Shown here: piece after piece, positions 54,206 through 59,860 of the stretch
Layout: each line of letters starts with the position of its first letter
How positions within the stretch are numbered: position 1 is the stretch's first letter
From: an uncultured Bacteroidales bacterium
GTDB lineage: Bacteria > Bacteroidota > Bacteroidia > Bacteroidales > Muribaculaceae
Reading direction: 5' to 3'
DNA: 64,000 bases
Assembly: GCA_902774055.1 (NCBI GenBank)
Contig: CACYGX010000005.1
Span: 248,001-312,000 of the forward strand
Made by a program: the position numbers and the translations under genes
Notes under the pieces: model-generated
Told to the model about the DNA's origin: nothing
The model's database searches: none
The model's input: only the letters and a program-made list of their open reading frames with translations

Positions 54206-54236
54206 TTTGTTCATTCGAAAATAGTGAGTAATTTTG
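54206..54236 (+). promoter_or_regulatory. Consensus promoter of RNA unit A (TTTG-N19-TAATTTTG)
   Basis: -33 TTTG at 54206-54209 and -7 TAATTTTG at 54229-54236 with a 19-bp spacer. The predicted start is near 54242. Confidence 0.65.
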
Positions 54237-54254
54237 CACCGTCTAATTGTTACC

Positions 54255-54344
54255 ATGAACCGTAGTGTGACATGGTTGCAAGAAGACATCGCAGTCATGC
54301 GATACTTTTTGATTCTTGTTTCGGAAAAATCGGCAATTTTTTAA
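54255..54344 (+). CDS. Doubtful 29-residue reading frame inside RNA unit A
   Basis: ATG-to-TAA frame encoding MNRSVTWLQEDIAVMRYFLI and nine more residues, starting 13 nt after the predicted transcript start. The second half lies in the repeated 50-bp segment, where unit B has no corresponding frame. Probably not a protein gene, though a leader peptide is possible. Confidence 0.18.
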   Translation: MNRSVTWLQEDIAVMRYFLILVSEKSAIF

Positions 54345-54357
54345 GAAGCAATCAAGA
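54308..54357 (+). repeat. 50-bp direct repeat, copy in unit A
   Basis: It matches 54875-54925 except for one inserted A. It begins TTTGATTCTTGTTTCGG and ends AAGAAGCAATCAAGA; its ends TTGATT and AATCAA can pair. Confidence 0.85.
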
Positions 54358-54874
54358 AAAGTTCAACTGGAATAGGATTGAATCTGTATTACATTCTAAC
54401 ACGTGGACTTTTAGCTTGCCAATGATTGCTTAGGTGTTTGCCGATACCTCCGAAACATTGGCACGGGCATAGAAGTCCATGTTTTTTTCAAAGGTATCCA
54501 TGACATGAATGATTACTATGAGATATAATCAGTGCTAATGCTGAATTTGGTCAAAAAATACAAACTAAACCGCTGTATATCAGCGGGTTTTACCCCCCCC
54601 TCACAGTCGTTCTCAAATGTGAGGATGTGGTACGATGTTCCATTTTCGGTACTGGATTCTTCTTGCCCGGATGCCTTCATCGGGGTAAAGTGTTTGTGCA
54701 ATACATTAATGTGTGTTGCGGCCGTTCTCGTGACAGCGACATGGCAGTCGCCGGCAGATGCTTCGGTGTCATGTCTTCAATTCATGGATGAATGGAGTAA
54801 TTGTGTGTTCATGCTAGCTTAAATGCCTATGTAAAAACCTGAAATCATCAGACTACATATCTACACATCTTTTA

Positions 54875-54925
54875 TTTGATTCTTGTTTCGGAAAAATCGG
54901 CAAATTTTTTAAGAAGCAATCAAGA
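54875..54925 (+). repeat. 51-bp direct repeat, copy in unit B
   Basis: Second copy, 567 bp downstream of the first. Almost complete conservation between copies while flanks diverge points to selection on RNA or DNA structure, or to recent duplication. Confidence 0.85.
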
Positions 54926-55051
54926 GTGAGATAATTGACCCCAATCCACGTGTGCGCGCGGACTTATATCTCTAGCTCGACAAAGTAATTGATTGCCTAA
55001 AAACCGATGGAAACCGAAACGTGAGCTCAAGATAAAGAGTCCGCGTTTTTT
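54875..55051 (+). ncRNA. Structured RNA unit B with terminator
   Basis: It contains the 51-bp repeat followed by a rod hairpin: CGCGGACT (54957-54964)/AGTCCGCG (55038-55045), TATCT (54967-54971)/AGATA (55030-55034), AGCTC (54974-54978)/GAGCT (55023-55027), then TTTTTT. The loop keeps TTGATTGCCTA and CCGAT...CCGAAAC as in unit A although stem sequences differ. CCGAT (55004-55008) and CCGAAAC (55014-55020) are complementary to ATCGG (54896-54900) and GTTTCGG (54885-54891) of its own repeat. The -7 candidate (TTTATTTG) is imperfect, so unit B may be read from upstream. It lies 106 bp before the 1567-residue gene. Confidence 0.5.
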
Positions 55052-55108
55052 ATTGTATGTGGTGATCTCAGCAAATATAACTCGTTAACCAGACGCTATA
55101 TATTATAT

Positions 55109-55156: not shown

Positions 55157-58100
55157 ATGAAATTATTTACTCTTGCACGTCTCATGGTTGTGATAGCAAT
55201 CATGAGTCTCGCGGCTCAATTACAGGCCGCGCAAGTCTTTCTTGATGCTCAGGCTCCGTACAGCGACAGCAATCCGCAGTGGAAAGTATGGGCCTGGGCC
55301 GATGGCCAAAATGGCTATTGGGTACAAGGCAATGACATTGTCGTCTTGAGCAATGGTCTCATTGAGGCTACGGTCAACGAAGACAACTTCCAGTTTGTCC
55401 GTTGTAGCTCTGACGGCAACACGGAGTGGAACCGTACTGTAAACCTGAGAACTGTTGCCGACGCTACCTACACCATCACCGGTTGGGGCAGTGGCGGTGG
55501 AATGACGGTCGATGTGACCAATCCCACCTACAACACTGTGACCCTTGACCTGTCGAAGGTGAGCGAGACGGACAATGTGTGGTATGCGTGGGCTTTTGCT
55601 ACGGGCGGTAACGGTTCGTGGGTTGCCGGCACGCAATCGGGCAACGATATTGAATTCAACGTTGCCAGTCTCAAGGACAAGGTTATCTTTGTCCGCATGA
55701 ATGCCAATGGCGCTCCCTCATGGAATAATGGCGTCAAGTTGAACCAGACCGATGACCTGACGTTACAGCCTGATGGCACATACGTTATCACCAACCTGGA
55801 AAGTACCAACATGACTGGTTACTGGAAAACCTCGGTTTGGCATCAGGATCCCAATGGTGACCCGGATTCTTACTTGGGCAATCGCCGAGCTCTCGTTGGC
55901 CGCCATTGCATGGTTAACAAGCTCATCAATGTGGTGGGCGTAGGATCTTGGATTACCGATCTCAACAACCTCGTTGATGAGGACTTGAGCAACTATGCCA
56001 CCTTCCCCAAGATTGCTGATGTGGGCGTGGGTGTGAACCCCGTGACCAGTGTGCGTGATACCAAGAATCACTACGCTGCCGGTACAACCGCAGGCTTCAA
56101 TGTGGTGCTGGCAGCTGATGCGTCATTGCTTGGCCTTGATTTGGCCAACTGCTTTGCCATCGCGTTCTATCTTGAAGGCGAATTGCAGCAGACCGTGGCC
56201 GTCGATGCAGGTCAAGCCTTCGGTGGCATCGGCCTGTCATTGATTACCTTGCCGGGTTCAGACGAAGTCAGTCTTGACATCTCGGCAACGGCTCCTTGTG
56301 AGTTCGATGAAATCGCGTTGATGCCTGCTGGTGTGCAAGCCGATGTTGCCAGCGCAGCCAGCATTCGTTATGCCTTTGTGGGCGACCTTATTAAGCATAC
56401 CATCACCCAAACTTCAATGCAGAACTATGCTGAAGATCATGGTCGCCTGCCGTTCACTCTCGACCAGGGTGTTATACCACGTGATGGAAGGGAAAATGGT
56501 ATAATATTAGTTGGATACGGTTACTGGGCAGGTAGTGACCTGATTAACGATGACTTGACAGATGGTGTGGCCTGGGGATTGCTTTCGGTAGGAACAGCAA
56601 TGGATGCTCGAATCGGTGCCGCTATGAACCGTCAAGATCCTGATCAGTCTCAGCCCTTCAAGGCAGGCTCAACTGTGGGCTTTAGTTATGGTAGTGGTAG
56701 CCTCTTAAACCTCCCCTTGGGTGATGCGATTCGCATCAGGCTTTATGAAGGTCACTGGGTAGAAAAATCATCACTTGTTTATGGTACCTACTATGAGTAT
56801 GAGGAAACTGAAGTACAAGACGAGAGCGTGAAGATTAATGTTTTGTCGCTTAAATTGATTCATGGTGGTGATTACCAGGTGACCATCACTGCCGATCATG
56901 ACTTCTCGCATGCGCGCATTTCGTTCCCCACAGGATTGAATCTTAACGTTGGTGGCACTAAGGTGAAATATGCCTTCATTTGTGATCCTGTTGAGGGTTA
57001 TCACAAGTGCAACCTGGGCGTGAGCGCTAATGTGGCCCTGTGTGCCGACGATACCCAGTATCAGTTGACCGCCAATGGTGGTGTTCCTGTTACCTGGACG
57101 CTGGTTGATGCTCCTGCTGGTTCCACCGCTACTGTGGATGCTCAGACGGGTCTGCTCACTGGCATCGATGTTGAGGGTGAGTATCGCGTTCGCGCTACCG
57201 CTGCCGATGGCTGCTATGACGAGATCGTAGTGAAGAGCGGTCTGGATTTCGATACCCGCTGCGACATGCCCATCTCTGGTGATGAGACAGAGTATGTTTT
57301 GAGCGAAGAGCTGCCTGGCGCTGATGGTGCCCTGATTAATATCAACGGCTACCTGCTGAACAAGGAGAACGTGCTCAATGCCAACTATAATGACTATGCC
57401 ACCTTCAACAGCGCGCTTGACGCTACCGTCGTCGAGAACCTGCCCATCGTGGGTGTGAAGAAGGTAAATGGCAATTTCTCCACTGGCTCCAAACGCCGTG
57501 TGGGCTTCGTGGTAGAGACCAAATCGACGGGCCTGAGTGCTGACGTTGCCGACCTGTTCAATATCCGCTGCTACAAGAACGGCGTGAGGACCTATTGGAA
57601 AGTGATTGACGAGACCAACGTGGTTAAAGCCAAGGTCATCGGCTCTGATAAGGTGCAGAAACTGCGCTACTCTATCGAGGTTCCCGCCGGTGTGGAATTT
57701 GACGAGTTCGCATTGTGGAAGAGCGGTGTGCTCGATCTTGAAATTGAGCGCTTCAAGGTTTACTACGCCTTTGACGAGGACGCCGAGGGTCAGGATGCTC
57801 CCGACGACTGTGGCGACCCGCTGGGTTGTGCAGGAAAGATGGTTTCCATCTATGACAACGCTACGCTGAACAGCAACGAGATCCAGTTTGCCGGTGCTAT
57901 CAATGCCGCCAATGTGGTCGATAACCTGAGCTTCCTGGTAGATGATGATTTAAATACCGGTGTCAGTGTGACCAATACTGTATCGGCTGGTAACGGCATC
58001 GTGTTTGCCGTTGACCTGGGCCGTGTTTACAGCCCGAGGCACCAGATTGGTATCGTGCTTGACAGCAAGACTTATCTTGCTAACGCTAAGGTAGGTAACT

Positions 58101-59860
58101 GGCTGACCATCAAAACCTATCGCAATGGCGTGAGAATGGATTCGATTAGCGATTGGGGCGTCATTGGCGTCAATGTCATTGGCTATGGCGACAAGAGCTA
58201 CTTGTATCTGACTCCCACCATGCCCTATGACGAGGTGCGCATTACCGTTGCTGCCCTTGTTGATGCGTTGGACTTTGACACCAAGTACTTCGGTATCTTT
58301 GTCCGCAGCGACTATGACGGTGACGGCACGCCCGACTGTCAGGACGACTACATCTGTCCCAACCCGCTCGGCGTTGACGTGAGATACGAGAGCGAGTTTG
58401 ATGCCGTTAACGAGCGTAACCTGTACAAGAACACTGTTAAGGTTTACAACCTGCCTGACTCTCCCGTGATGGTTGAACAGTTGACCGAGGGTTCAGAAAT
58501 CAGGGTTTATCGTGTGGACAATGATGCGCTGGTAGGTACCGCCACCGTGACTGGTGTTACCACCAACCAAGACGGCTCTTACAGCATCGCTTACAGCAAT
58601 ACTCCTAACTCCTCGAGTCAGGATCACGTGGATGCTAACCGTTATCCCGATGCGACAGGCACCCTTACTGCCGATGAATGGGGATATGTGAACTTTGAGG
58701 ACCTGTTTATCCTTGACCAGTTCTCGGCTCCCACCAGCACTAACATGCACAGCACTGACTATCACTACAAGGCTATCTTGATCAATAACCTGAGGAGTCA
58801 GCGCACCGAGAGCCAAGTGATGGAGGTTCCCGTCCTGAAGACCGCACATGTGGCGAATGCCGCAACATTCACCCTGGAAGATGTCCAGAGCGACACCGAT
58901 CACCACCTGGCTAACGCCCCCGTCGATATCTATGTGCAGATGAAGAATGACCTGGATATCCAGAGGTATGAGGCCCTCAGGGTTGCCAACAATGCCGCAG
59001 AAACTGTGGCTGCCGCTACCCGCGTCGATGACCTTACCTTTGCAAGAACGAGCAAGCAAGAGGATGGCCAGATGAAGAATTGGGGTACTGTAGTCTTCTC
59101 AAATGTAGATGACGTGCAGACCGTTGTCCTGCGTGACAGTACGATGCAGTCGCTGGCTGAATATGTGCCCACCATCTTCGCTTACACTCCCAGCTATGAT
59201 AAGGTGAATAAGGATCAGATTGTCCTGAGTTCTTATGGTGCTGACCGCTTGACCGACGACATAGCACACTTGAACATGTCGGTAATGGCCGTCGAGAAGT
59301 CAGAGCCTTACAATGGCTACAGGTCCTATACCGCCGACATCTCGTTGAACGGTCAAGTACCCAACGACATGGAGCAATACTATTATCGCATCTGGCGTGT
59401 AATGCCCGATGGATCAGAGGTGCTGCTCAATACCCTCGAGAGCCAGAGTGGTGGCACAGGCGAATCGGCCTGGGCTCAGAACTACGAAGCGTTGAAGGGT
59501 ACTTATCCTGGCGCGACAATCAGCGTGCGCGACATCTTCGCCGCTCCCTCGATTGGTGAGGGTGAGTCACTGACTATTTCCTATATCGCTCGCTTGTATG
59601 CCGAGAAAGAACTTCCCAGCCTGCAGTTAAGGAACAGGGCTGGTGGCTCGGGCTATGGCATTGCACCCGCTGGCGGTTCAGGCGAATGGAATGATGGCAC
59701 CCCGACCGGCGTCAACGAGATGACCAGTGCTTTGGTACCCATGAAGACGACGTATTACAACGCTCTGGGTATGAGTTCAAGCACTCCATTTGATGGATTA
59801 AATATTATTGTAATTCAATACACTAACGGAAAAACCGTGGTTCAAAAACACACGTATTAA
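55157..59860 (+). CDS. 1567-residue secreted multidomain protein of unknown function
   Basis: The signal peptide ends near LAAQLQAAQ. Residues about 25-220 hold two related Trp-rich domains (VWAWADGQNGYWVQG and WYAWAFATGGNGSWVAG) resembling carbohydrate- or starch-binding modules. Residues about 240-900 contain three beta-sandwich-like units, each with a VDEDLSNYATF- or VDDDLNTGVSV-like segment and a conserved 'G..V....L' core. A segment DYDGDGTPDCQDD near 1055 looks like a thrombospondin type 3-like calcium loop. The last 35 residues (TTYYNALGMSSSTPFDGLNI ... NGKTVVQK) resemble C-terminal sorting-like segments of Bacteroidales secreted proteins. There is no dockerin-like module. Adhesion or glycan binding is plausible; no enzyme domain is seen. 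Confidence 0.8.
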   Translation: MKLFTLARLMVVIAIMSLAAQLQAAQVFLDAQAPYSDSNPQWKVWAWADGQNGYWVQGNDIVVLSNGLIEATVNEDNFQFVRCSSDGNTEWNRTVNLRTVADATYTITGWGSGGGMTVDVTNPTYNTVTLDLSKVSETDNVWYAWAFATGGNGSWVAGTQSGNDIEFNVASLKDKVIFVRMNANGAPSWNNGVKLNQTDDLTLQPDGTYVITNLESTNMTGYWKTSVWHQDPNGDPDSYLGNRRALVGRHCMVNKLINVVGVGSWITDLNNLVDEDLSNYATFPKIADVGVGVNPVTSVRDTKNHYAAGTTAGFNVVLAADASLLGLDLANCFAIAFYLEGELQQTVAVDAGQAFGGIGLSLITLPGSDEVSLDISATAPCEFDEIALMPAGVQADVASAASIRYAFVGDLIKHTITQTSMQNYAEDHGRLPFTLDQGVIPRDGRENGIILVGYGYWAGSDLINDDLTDGVAWGLLSVGTAMDARIGAAMNRQDPDQSQPFKAGSTVGFSYGSGSLLNLPLGDAIRIRLYEGHWVEKSSLVYGTYYEYEETEVQDESVKINVLSLKLIHGGDYQVTITADHDFSHARISFPTGLNLNVGGTKVKYAFICDPVEGYHKCNLGVSANVALCADDTQYQLTANGGVPVTWTLVDAPAGSTATVDAQTGLLTGIDVEGEYRVRATAADGCYDEIVVKSGLDFDTRCDMPISGDETEYVLSEELPGADGALININGYLLNKENVLNANYNDYATFNSALDATVVENLPIVGVKKVNGNFSTGSKRRVGFVVETKSTGLSADVADLFNIRCYKNGVRTYWKVIDETNVVKAKVIGSDKVQKLRYSIEVPAGVEFDEFALWKSGVLDLEIERFKVYYAFDEDAEGQDAPDDCGDPLGCAGKMVSIYDNATLNSNEIQFAGAINAANVVDNLSFLVDDDLNTGVSVTNTVSAGNGIVFAVDLGRVYSPRHQIGIVLDSKTYLANAKVGNWLTIKTYRNGVRMDSISDWGVIGVNVIGYGDKSYLYLTPTMPYDEVRITVAALVDALDFDTKYFGIFVRSDYDGDGTPDCQDDYICPNPLGVDVRYESEFDAVNERNLYKNTVKVYNLPDSPVMVEQLTEGSEIRVYRVDNDALVGTATVTGVTTNQDGSYSIAYSNTPNSSSQDHVDANRYPDATGTLTADEWGYVNFEDLFILDQFSAPTSTNMHSTDYHYKAILINNLRSQRTESQVMEVPVLKTAHVANAATFTLEDVQSDTDHHLANAPVDIYVQMKNDLDIQRYEALRVANNAAETVAAATRVDDLTFARTSKQEDGQMKNWGTVVFSNVDDVQTVVLRDSTMQSLAEYVPTIFAYTPSYDKVNKDQIVLSSYGADRLTDDIAHLNMSVMAVEKSEPYNGYRSYTADISLNGQVPNDMEQYYYRIWRVMPDGSEVLLNTLESQSGGTGESAWAQNYEALKGTYPGATISVRDIFAAPSIGEGESLTISYIARLYAEKELPSLQLRNRAGGSGYGIAPAGGSGEWNDGTPTGVNEMTSALVPMKTTYYNALGMSSSTPFDGLNIIVIQYTNGKTVVQKHTY

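Follow-up and report, generated by a model that had tools for sequence, protein, structure and literature searches.

Two tandem leader RNA units in a Muribaculaceae genome belong to a Bacteroidota family with alternative four-strand folds and are candidate transcription attenuators

Results

Two alternative folds in the leader of a surface-type gene

In the window analysed here, a 64,000-nucleotide (nt) stretch of contig CACYGX010000005.1 (positions 248,001 to 312,000) from an uncultured Bacteroidales bacterium of the Muribaculaceae, two tandem RNA units, A (54240-54488) and B (54823-55063), were found ahead of the gene that they are presumed to control (55157..59860, plus strand). Comparison with relatives in other genomes suggests that both units act in cis, as transcription attenuators in the messenger's 5' leader, a reading to which we assign a probability of about 0.75. 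Two mutually exclusive folds of four strands were supported across the relatives, with strand combinations 1:3 and 2:4 as controls. The helix of strands 3 and 4 (3:4) plus its U-run resembles a terminator, and the helix of strands 2 and 3 (2:3), with the helices that join a conserved 5' segment to the apical loop, would form an antiterminator rod. A sequence-only reading of this DNA had offered a pseudoknot, a terminator/antiterminator switch or cross-pairing between the units; strand preference and folding made the switch the best supported of the three, and kissing or pseudoknot pairing of the segment:loop helices is possible in the terminated state.

Covariation of the helices

DNA search and pattern search first revealed relatives in other genomes, some as A+B pairs and others as single compact units. 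Covariance model R1 comprised 13 units and model R2 comprised 52, and the 13-unit alignment (A1) was chosen by hand. A total of 110 matches were gathered; 16 that lay on the other strand at sites already matched were discarded, and 94 were kept, weak ones included. The pair counts used 41 of the 94 after removal of near-duplicates (>0.90), window-type A/B units, and diverged or misregistered members, so this alignment favours alignable sequences. The rod (helices PA, PB, PC, PD and PE), the outer helix and the AGTCC:GGACT helix together made 53 pairs, and 93.1% of their cells were paired in the 41 aligned compact members, compared with 37-46% in slid control versions of the set. Both sides had changed in 187 cells versus 49.5 after shuffling (standard deviation 6.0; 0/500), a statistic that leaves the relatedness of the members in place. 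The innermost pair of PA, for example, was GC in 19 members, UA in 7, CG in 6, AU in 5 and GU in 2, and in one relative (L035) the segment GCTTTCTA and the loop TAGAAAGC replaced GTTTCGG and CCGAAAC, so that both sides were changed and the pairing was kept. RNAalifold recovered PA, PB, PC and PE without a given structure, with compensatory change in 20 of 26 pairs. The covariance-model search yielded many homologues with compensatory changes.

The remaining helices were also well paired. The 5' hairpin CTTG:CAAG was paired in 93.1% of cells, with 14 compensatory cells versus 2.6, and extended, mainly via one-sided changes, to an 11-base-pair helix AGCGTTAGCTT:AAGTTGATGCT. Segments of the 1:2 helix were 92-98% paired, the terminator helix 3:4 was 96.6% paired with little variation, and 1:2, 3:4 and the small hairpin together showed 32 compensatory cells against 8.1 shuffled (0/500). 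A helix between the U-run and an A-run was paired in 90.5% of cells. The GGT:ACC hairpin covaried, and together with the A letters before PB and the AATTT after PB it made up an apparently conserved core. By eye, the letters adjoining PB, which are unpaired, were conserved though PB itself was exchanged in distant relatives.

Own-partner preference of the four strands

Strand 1 was defined as the region of AGCGTTAGCTT...TTCTTG, strand 2 as CAAGAGTAAAAGTTGATGCTCACG, strand 3 as CGTGGGCTTTTACTC and strand 4 as AGTCCACGTTTTTT. A set of 180 gathered elements was reduced to 128 non-redundant ones by removing near-duplicates (>0.88) and L091, L098, L112 and L173, the doubtful L059 and L061 having been dropped earlier; only unit B of the window is among the 128. 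Four elements in which the strand 3 pattern failed (L050, L051, L129, L054) were lost from the 124-element sets. Across the 124, each strand paired better with its own partner than with foreign ones: -18.2 versus -13.2 kcal/mol for 1:2, -16.4 versus -13.6 for 2:3, and -19.4 versus -14.9 for 3:4. The control combinations showed no such preference (1:3, -6.1 versus -6.0; 2:4, -8.9 versus -8.8 kcal/mol). The segment:loop duplex reached -23.3 kcal/mol with the own loop versus -12.2 with others, and the own loop was the best of all 124 in 73 elements.

The pairing segments varied between copies of one genome. Of 17 copies fetched from each of two multi-copy genomes, 12 (G683) and 15 (G562) were included, and the segment paired best with its own loop in 11 of the 12 and 14 of the 15. 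Cross-pairing between units, which the sequence-only reading had allowed for, is therefore disfavoured and was rejected as a general mechanism. In the window itself, A and B are so alike that by duplex energy cross-pairing is as stable as self-pairing.

In minimum-energy folding of a growing transcript, 1:2 was present in 118 of 124 elements once strand 2 was complete; 2:3 was present in 86 after strand 3 was out and in 119 just before strand 4. Comparison among relatives shows the helices, the exclusion that follows from shared strands, the preference for own partners and the place between promoter and gene.

Position between promoter and gene

The leader sits between promoter and gene on the same strand. 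The promoter motif TAnnTTTG was present within 110 nt upstream of 103 of 127 elements (7.7 expected). Of the 128 elements, 40 did not have 500 nt on both sides and were left out of the comparison of open reading frames (ORFs); among the other 88, a same-strand ORF of at least 70 amino acids (aa) started within 400 nt in 84, compared with 43 of 88 in a mirror control. By a crude test, a signal-peptide-like start of the downstream ORF was found in 55, compared with 8 in the mirror control. Over all 128 elements, an ORF lay within 400 nt in 118, at a median of 66.5 nt to the ATG, and 81 were signal-like.

The 113 downstream proteins scanned fell into many families with one to three members each, besides BspA-type leucine-rich repeat (LRR) proteins (9), TonB plug domains (5), type IX secretion system (T9SS) tails (4) and TerB (4); restriction-modification proteins were also among the products. 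No transposase or recombinase was present among the 25 families listed of 63 Pfam and of 251 NCBIfam for these downstream proteins, upstream proteins having been scanned only at L245.

Distribution of the family

At E<=0.01, and counting the genome of the window, model R1 had matches in 22 of the 101 genus genomes and 86 of the 397 family genomes; these tallies include a few doubtful ones, such as L061, which lies inside a coding repeat. At E<=0.001, model R2 had matches in 155 of the 393 genomes searched from the order and in 32 of 296 from a sample of the phylum, 4 of the 32 being outside the window's class. Matches were found in 11 of 12 chosen genomes, in 26, 21, 18, 17, 10, 7, 7, 4, 3, 2 and 1 copies (E<=1e-4). 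The window's genome has four copies: A, B, L240 before an EcoRI-type methylase gene, and L241 before a BspA-type LRR gene.

The host genomes searched were Bacteroidota, and searches beyond the phylum covered viral, phage and plasmid collections. An exact pattern search found the element in four viral contigs (L242-L245); a second pattern search of viral contigs gave no match, and blastn with the window region or one compact member as query returned nothing from phage and plasmid records. In each viral contig a same-strand ORF follows the element. This ORF has a lipoprotein-like start in three of them; in the fourth, L242, the lipoprotein-like ORF is the one after it. The end of a DDE transposase gene lies just upstream of the element in L245.

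The claim of an undescribed RNA held up in the Rfam searches. At E<=1, neither the element in the window nor those of 34 relatives had a match to any family, and at the gathering threshold none lay over the element in 20 loci, two of which are among the 34 relatives. At E<=5, three matches at chance level (E 3.8-4.5) were obtained in the window, and two of these touch unit B. Matches above gathering occurred only in neighbouring sequence (tRNA, FopS and DUF805b). The element was not found described in the open-access literature searched, as far as the available parts of texts including PMC2864571, PMC8040213, PMC7366714, PMC5418344 and PMC9723704 go, supplements not covered. Apparently this is a large RNA family of Bacteroidota that is unnamed in Rfam.

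A start-stop ORF ahead of strand 1

The motif [GAT][CT][CT][TA]ATG was found 18-60 nt before strand 1 in 59 of the 128 elements, leaving 69 without it. In 48 of the 59, a stop followed at codon 2 or 3 (TAA 37, TAG 8, TGA 3), and 11 did not fit. In an earlier set (144 gathered, 101 non-redundant), 76 elements had the ATG and 56 of these stopped at codon 2 or 3 versus 18.2 shuffled (maximum 29 in 1000), the three frames scoring 51, 10 and 13. An alternative cause for part of this pattern is a TATGT:ACATA stem. The ATG lay at a median of 35 nt before strand 1, without overlap. Three copies in one genome (L214, L218, L220) kept the ATG with a longer ORF, several diverged members had a small hairpin in place of the start-stop ORF, and most phylum-sample relatives were without it. 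The start-stop ORF is a frequent add-on outside the core. To our knowledge, it is unusual as a conserved feature of bacterial leaders.

Units A and B of the window

All features described here are on the plus strand. As the sequence-only reading had stated, the two units share a nearly identical 5' segment (A 54308-54357, B 54875-54925), in which the repeat search found a 35-nt block of 97% and a 23-nt block of 100% identity, and both rods have GGACTT...AGTCC stems with tails of T7 (A) and T6 (B). The complementarity of segment and loop was likewise borne out by duplex energies (-29.7 kcal/mol in A, -24.4 kcal/mol in B), and the repeat search reported inverted repeats between the A segment and the A loop (20 nt, 85%) and between the B segment and the A loop (21 nt, 86%). 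The 3:4 helix was calculated at -33.3 kcal/mol in A and -31.2 in B. Unit A folded at -80.1 kcal/mol (z -4.93) and unit B at -49.3 kcal/mol (z -3.19), with 0 of 200 shuffles as good in either case. Unlike that of most relatives, the predicted minimum-energy fold of both A and B contains the terminator rod. The same four strands could be read in both units, with the 1:2 register shifted in A.

Unit A follows the Bacteroidota-type promoter that had been noticed before (TTTG at 54206-54209, 19 nt, TAATTTTG at 54229-54236), which would place the transcript start near 54240. The 5' hairpin ACCATG...CATGGT (54252..54276) occupies the site of the start-stop ORF of many relatives. Strand 1 (54291..54323, with TTCTTG at 54313-54318) formed its best 1:2 duplex (-15.4 kcal/mol) with 54345-54370, shifted from the family register TTCTTG:CAAGAA, which is also present. 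The conserved 5' segment (54318..54353) carries PA5' GTTTCGG, PB5' ATCGGCAA and PC5' GCAATC, whose helices covary in relatives. It is followed by strand 2 (CAAGAAAAGTTCA..., 54353..54370), with a 2:3 duplex of -12.2 kcal/mol between AAAAGTTCA and TGGACTTTT, and by strand 3 (ACGTGGACTTTTAGC...GCCAATG, 54400..54424), the 5' arm of the terminator-like rod. The apical loop (54424..54456) contains PC3' GATTGC, the small hairpin AGGT(GTTTGCCGAT)ACCT carrying PB3', and PA3' CCGAAAC. Strand 4, the 3' arm with AAGTCCATG, and the T-run (54456..54488) close the unit in the manner of an intrinsic terminator.

Unit B begins with a mini-ORF, ATG CCT ATG TAA (54823..54834). The 5' strand of the outer helix, ACTACATA (54852..54859), has its partner TATGTGGT at 55056-55063, beyond the T-run, as judged by eye in comparison with other B units. 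Strand 1 (54867..54886) gave a 1:2 duplex of -14.4 kcal/mol in the family register ATTCTTG:CAAGAGT, and the conserved 5' segment (54885..54923) is followed by strand 2 (CAAGAGTGAGATAATTGA, 54920..54943; 2:3 duplex -12.0 kcal/mol). Strand 3 (CGCGGACTTATATCT...AGCTC, 54955..54982), the apical loop (GATTGCC...CCGAT...CCGAAAC, 54990..55021) and strand 4 (...AGAGTCCGCG) with its T6 run (55020..55051) complete the rod. The units had earlier been placed at 54206..55051; they do lie there, the start-stop ORF of B included, and the element reaches further, B having partners after the T-run. The loop motifs said to be kept are present in both window units. They did not hold in four other B units, in which the loop retains CCCGAAAC/T, GATTGC occurs in 1/4 and CCGAT in 0/4; the segment:loop complementarity is thus weaker in B-type units than first claimed. 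Besides the promoter of unit A, no second TAnnTTTG was found between 54151 and 54900. Unit B seems to be without a promoter of its own and is therefore probably reached by read-through from A.

The gene that follows encodes, as had been predicted, a large surface-type protein (1567 aa, signal-peptide-like start), which had no Pfam match. In L040, L042, L044 and L064, the gene after unit B encodes a similar N-terminus.

Neighbouring sequences

The A-B spacer (54489..54822), which was aligned in five genomes, holds a small ORF with a poly-C tract (54593-54600) and further predicted hairpins. The tract is of variable length in the window, L036, L024, L038 and L025, and in L036 it is broken by an A; slippage could shift the frame, or the differences could be assembly errors. 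Pairing of two spacer hairpins (GTTGCGGCCGTTC...CGTGAC and ATGGCA...TGTCAT; 54715-54772 in the window) was largely kept in these five genomes, a small sample that gives weak support.

DNA methyltransferase genes follow L240 in the window's genome (EcoRI type) and L236 and L239 in G562 (MmeI-like and N6_N4 type). In f124, a family of the same class, five elements (L164, L167, L171, L178, L180) precede SusC-receptor-like genes, L164 being confirmed and the others judged by a similar start; the f124 elements have neither a start-stop ORF nor an obvious GGACT motif. The elements of the viral contigs precede small exported-type ORFs, as in prophage cargo cassettes. At L084 (1029-1098, minus strand), the FopS small RNA (RF04319, E 5.6e-9) lies about 400 nt upstream of the element on the opposite strand.

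Discussion

In the mechanism that we propose, RNA polymerase would start at the promoter and make strands 1 to 4 in order. Strand 1 would pair first with strand 2. Strand 3 could then take the place of strand 1 on strand 2, and, as the distal side of the loop emerged, PC, PB and PA would zip up on top of the 2:3 hairpin to give a long rod. Because this rod would occupy strand 3, strand 4 could not form the 3:4 terminator and transcription would continue. Strand 4 and the U-run of compact members could subsequently pair with the A-run next to strand 1 and the downstream GGACT motif. If 1:2 were retained instead, 3:4 and the U-run would form and transcription would stop ahead of the gene. Termination at 3:4 in the cell, the regulation of the choice and the order of folding are the parts of this scheme that we infer. 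Since promoter, A, B and gene form one series in the window, two terminators would gate one surface-type gene.

Several observations weigh against this reading. Unconstrained full-length folds kept 2:3 in 111 of 124 elements and 1:2 with 3:4 in 9. Under constrained folding, the terminator state was lower in 40 of 124, with a median gap of 3.25 kcal/mol favouring the rod, and the energy model indicates that most members may read through by default. By these energies the two states are not far apart, and read-through is the prediction for most members as long as 1:2 is not maintained. Three of the eight pairs of the 3:4 helix never vary in the main alignment, and the 1:4 combination showed a weak own-partner preference (-9.0 versus -7.7 kcal/mol). 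The best 1:2 duplex of unit A lies outside the family register, and a crude terminator scan that allowed loops of 3-8 flagged neither window rod. The AGTCC:GGACT helix cannot steer termination at the T-run, because it lies after it. Finally, the downstream genes share no family, which would be odd for a ligand-specific switch.

Some of these features would also suit a leader that acts on translation or messenger stability, in which the rod and the start-stop ORF or hairpin shield the 5' end and the U-run is kept for pairing with the A-run. The extent of that pairing and the covariation of AGTCC:GGACT after the T-run agree with such a role, as do the read-through fold of most members and the frequent placement of a start-stop ORF or hairpin near the inferred start. 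We consider it unlikely, given that 3:4 has an own-partner preference and 1:3 and 2:4 have none, that unit B keeps its T-run without an A-run, and that both window rods are very stable. A promoter, a terminator-like end and a strong fold are equally what an independent small RNA merely located before genes would possess. The same-strand ORF within 400 nt of 118 of 128 elements, its excess over the mirror control, the covariation that runs past the T-run to GGACT and the variation of pairing segments from copy to copy within a genome make this improbable. An antisense or toxin-antitoxin RNA was rejected, both units being on one strand and paired with their own loops.

A DNA element, be it a recombination site, a repeat or a transposon end, with inverted repeats that merely mimic RNA helices is the least probable alternative, and we give it very little weight. 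Many copies per genome with varied neighbours, the occurrence in four viral contigs and some matches near contig ends speak for it; the last suggest insertion sequences, and repetitive downstream surface genes could also break assemblies. No search was aimed specifically at transposon ends, and in one relative, L245, a transposase gene lies just upstream. Orientation and distance to promoter and gene were nonetheless consistent, G-U pairs were tolerated in many helices, each copy paired best with itself, and the listed downstream families held no transposase or recombinase. With upstream proteins not scanned, no protein of the kind that goes with a bridge or omega RNA was among those families either, and that candidate was rejected.

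Two triggers would be compatible with an attenuator. A ligand or RNA-binding protein acting on the conserved unpaired core, as in a riboswitch-like or protein-controlled regulon, is possible at a little below even odds: the letters beside PB persist while PB is exchanged, the GGT:ACC hairpin covaries and many copies occur per genome, but no common pathway was seen among the downstream genes. A trigger of the leader-peptide type, in which a ribosome at the start-stop ORF reports translation and sets the fold, is rather doubtful. The stop at codon 2 or 3 in most motif elements, with all three stop codons used, the excess over shuffling and the predominance of one frame favour it; the 69 elements without the motif, the rarity of such an ORF in the phylum sample and the longer ORFs of L214, L218 and L220 do not. 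The median of 35 nt between ATG and strand 1 also exceeds a ribosome footprint. The core is the wider spread of the two features, and a protein or ligand acting on it seems for this reason the likelier trigger.

Tentatively, the attenuator could be a gene-independent switch of Bacteroidota, a four-strand exchange begun by the complementary loops of two hairpins, with copies privately recoded to self-fold. It might coordinate, on one common cellular signal, an accessory regulon of surface LRR proteins, lipoproteins, SusC receptors, restriction-modification enzymes and phage-borne lipoproteins. If the attenuator reading is right, many surface, lipoprotein and restriction genes of a main gut phylum would lie behind a common RNA switch unnamed in Rfam, and the tuning of surface and defence genes in Bacteroidota would become directly testable. 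The element would offer a self-contained control part and, since genes otherwise without anything in common carry it, might point to a new signal.

Flavo-1 and other Bacteroidetes motifs are structured RNAs found computationally in the same phylum (Weinberg et al. 2010, PMC2864571); as far as the available part of that source allows comparison, they differ from the present element, which had no Rfam match in the window or its 34 relatives. In the accessible part of another study, 3161 candidate RNAs of human microbiomes include Bacteroidetes candidates predicted as terminators (PMC8040213), among which an unnamed counterpart is possible. DUF805b RNA (RF02914), an orphan cis-regulatory motif, has the same position class. 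In 7 of the 11 G562 leaders searched at E<=1 (17 leaders fetched) it separated the element from the start codon, 3 being above gathering, with positions 449-484 in L225, 464-499 in L231 and 1395-1430 in L238, among others. It differs in being 35 nt long and, in L225, lies 30 nt downstream of the element without overlap. The leader of tetQ of Bacteroides (Wang et al. 2005) is listed among attenuators, with translational control by tetracycline, in the available portion of PMC5418344. The present element, by contrast, has a terminator-like rod at its end and is found before many unrelated genes. The tetQ leader reportedly encodes a very short leader peptide.

Another close system is that of trp-type attenuators, in which 1:2 and 3:4 compete with 2:3, a U-run follows 3:4 and a leader ORF overlaps strand 1. 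The four strands and the U-run are shared, as is a tiny upstream ORF in many members. Here the body of the antiterminator rod is built from the complementary loops of 1:2 and 3:4; the ORF, one or two codons long, precedes strand 1; and the genes are not biosynthetic. The element would work like a trp-type attenuator and departs from it in one feature, the overlap of the ORF with strand 1.
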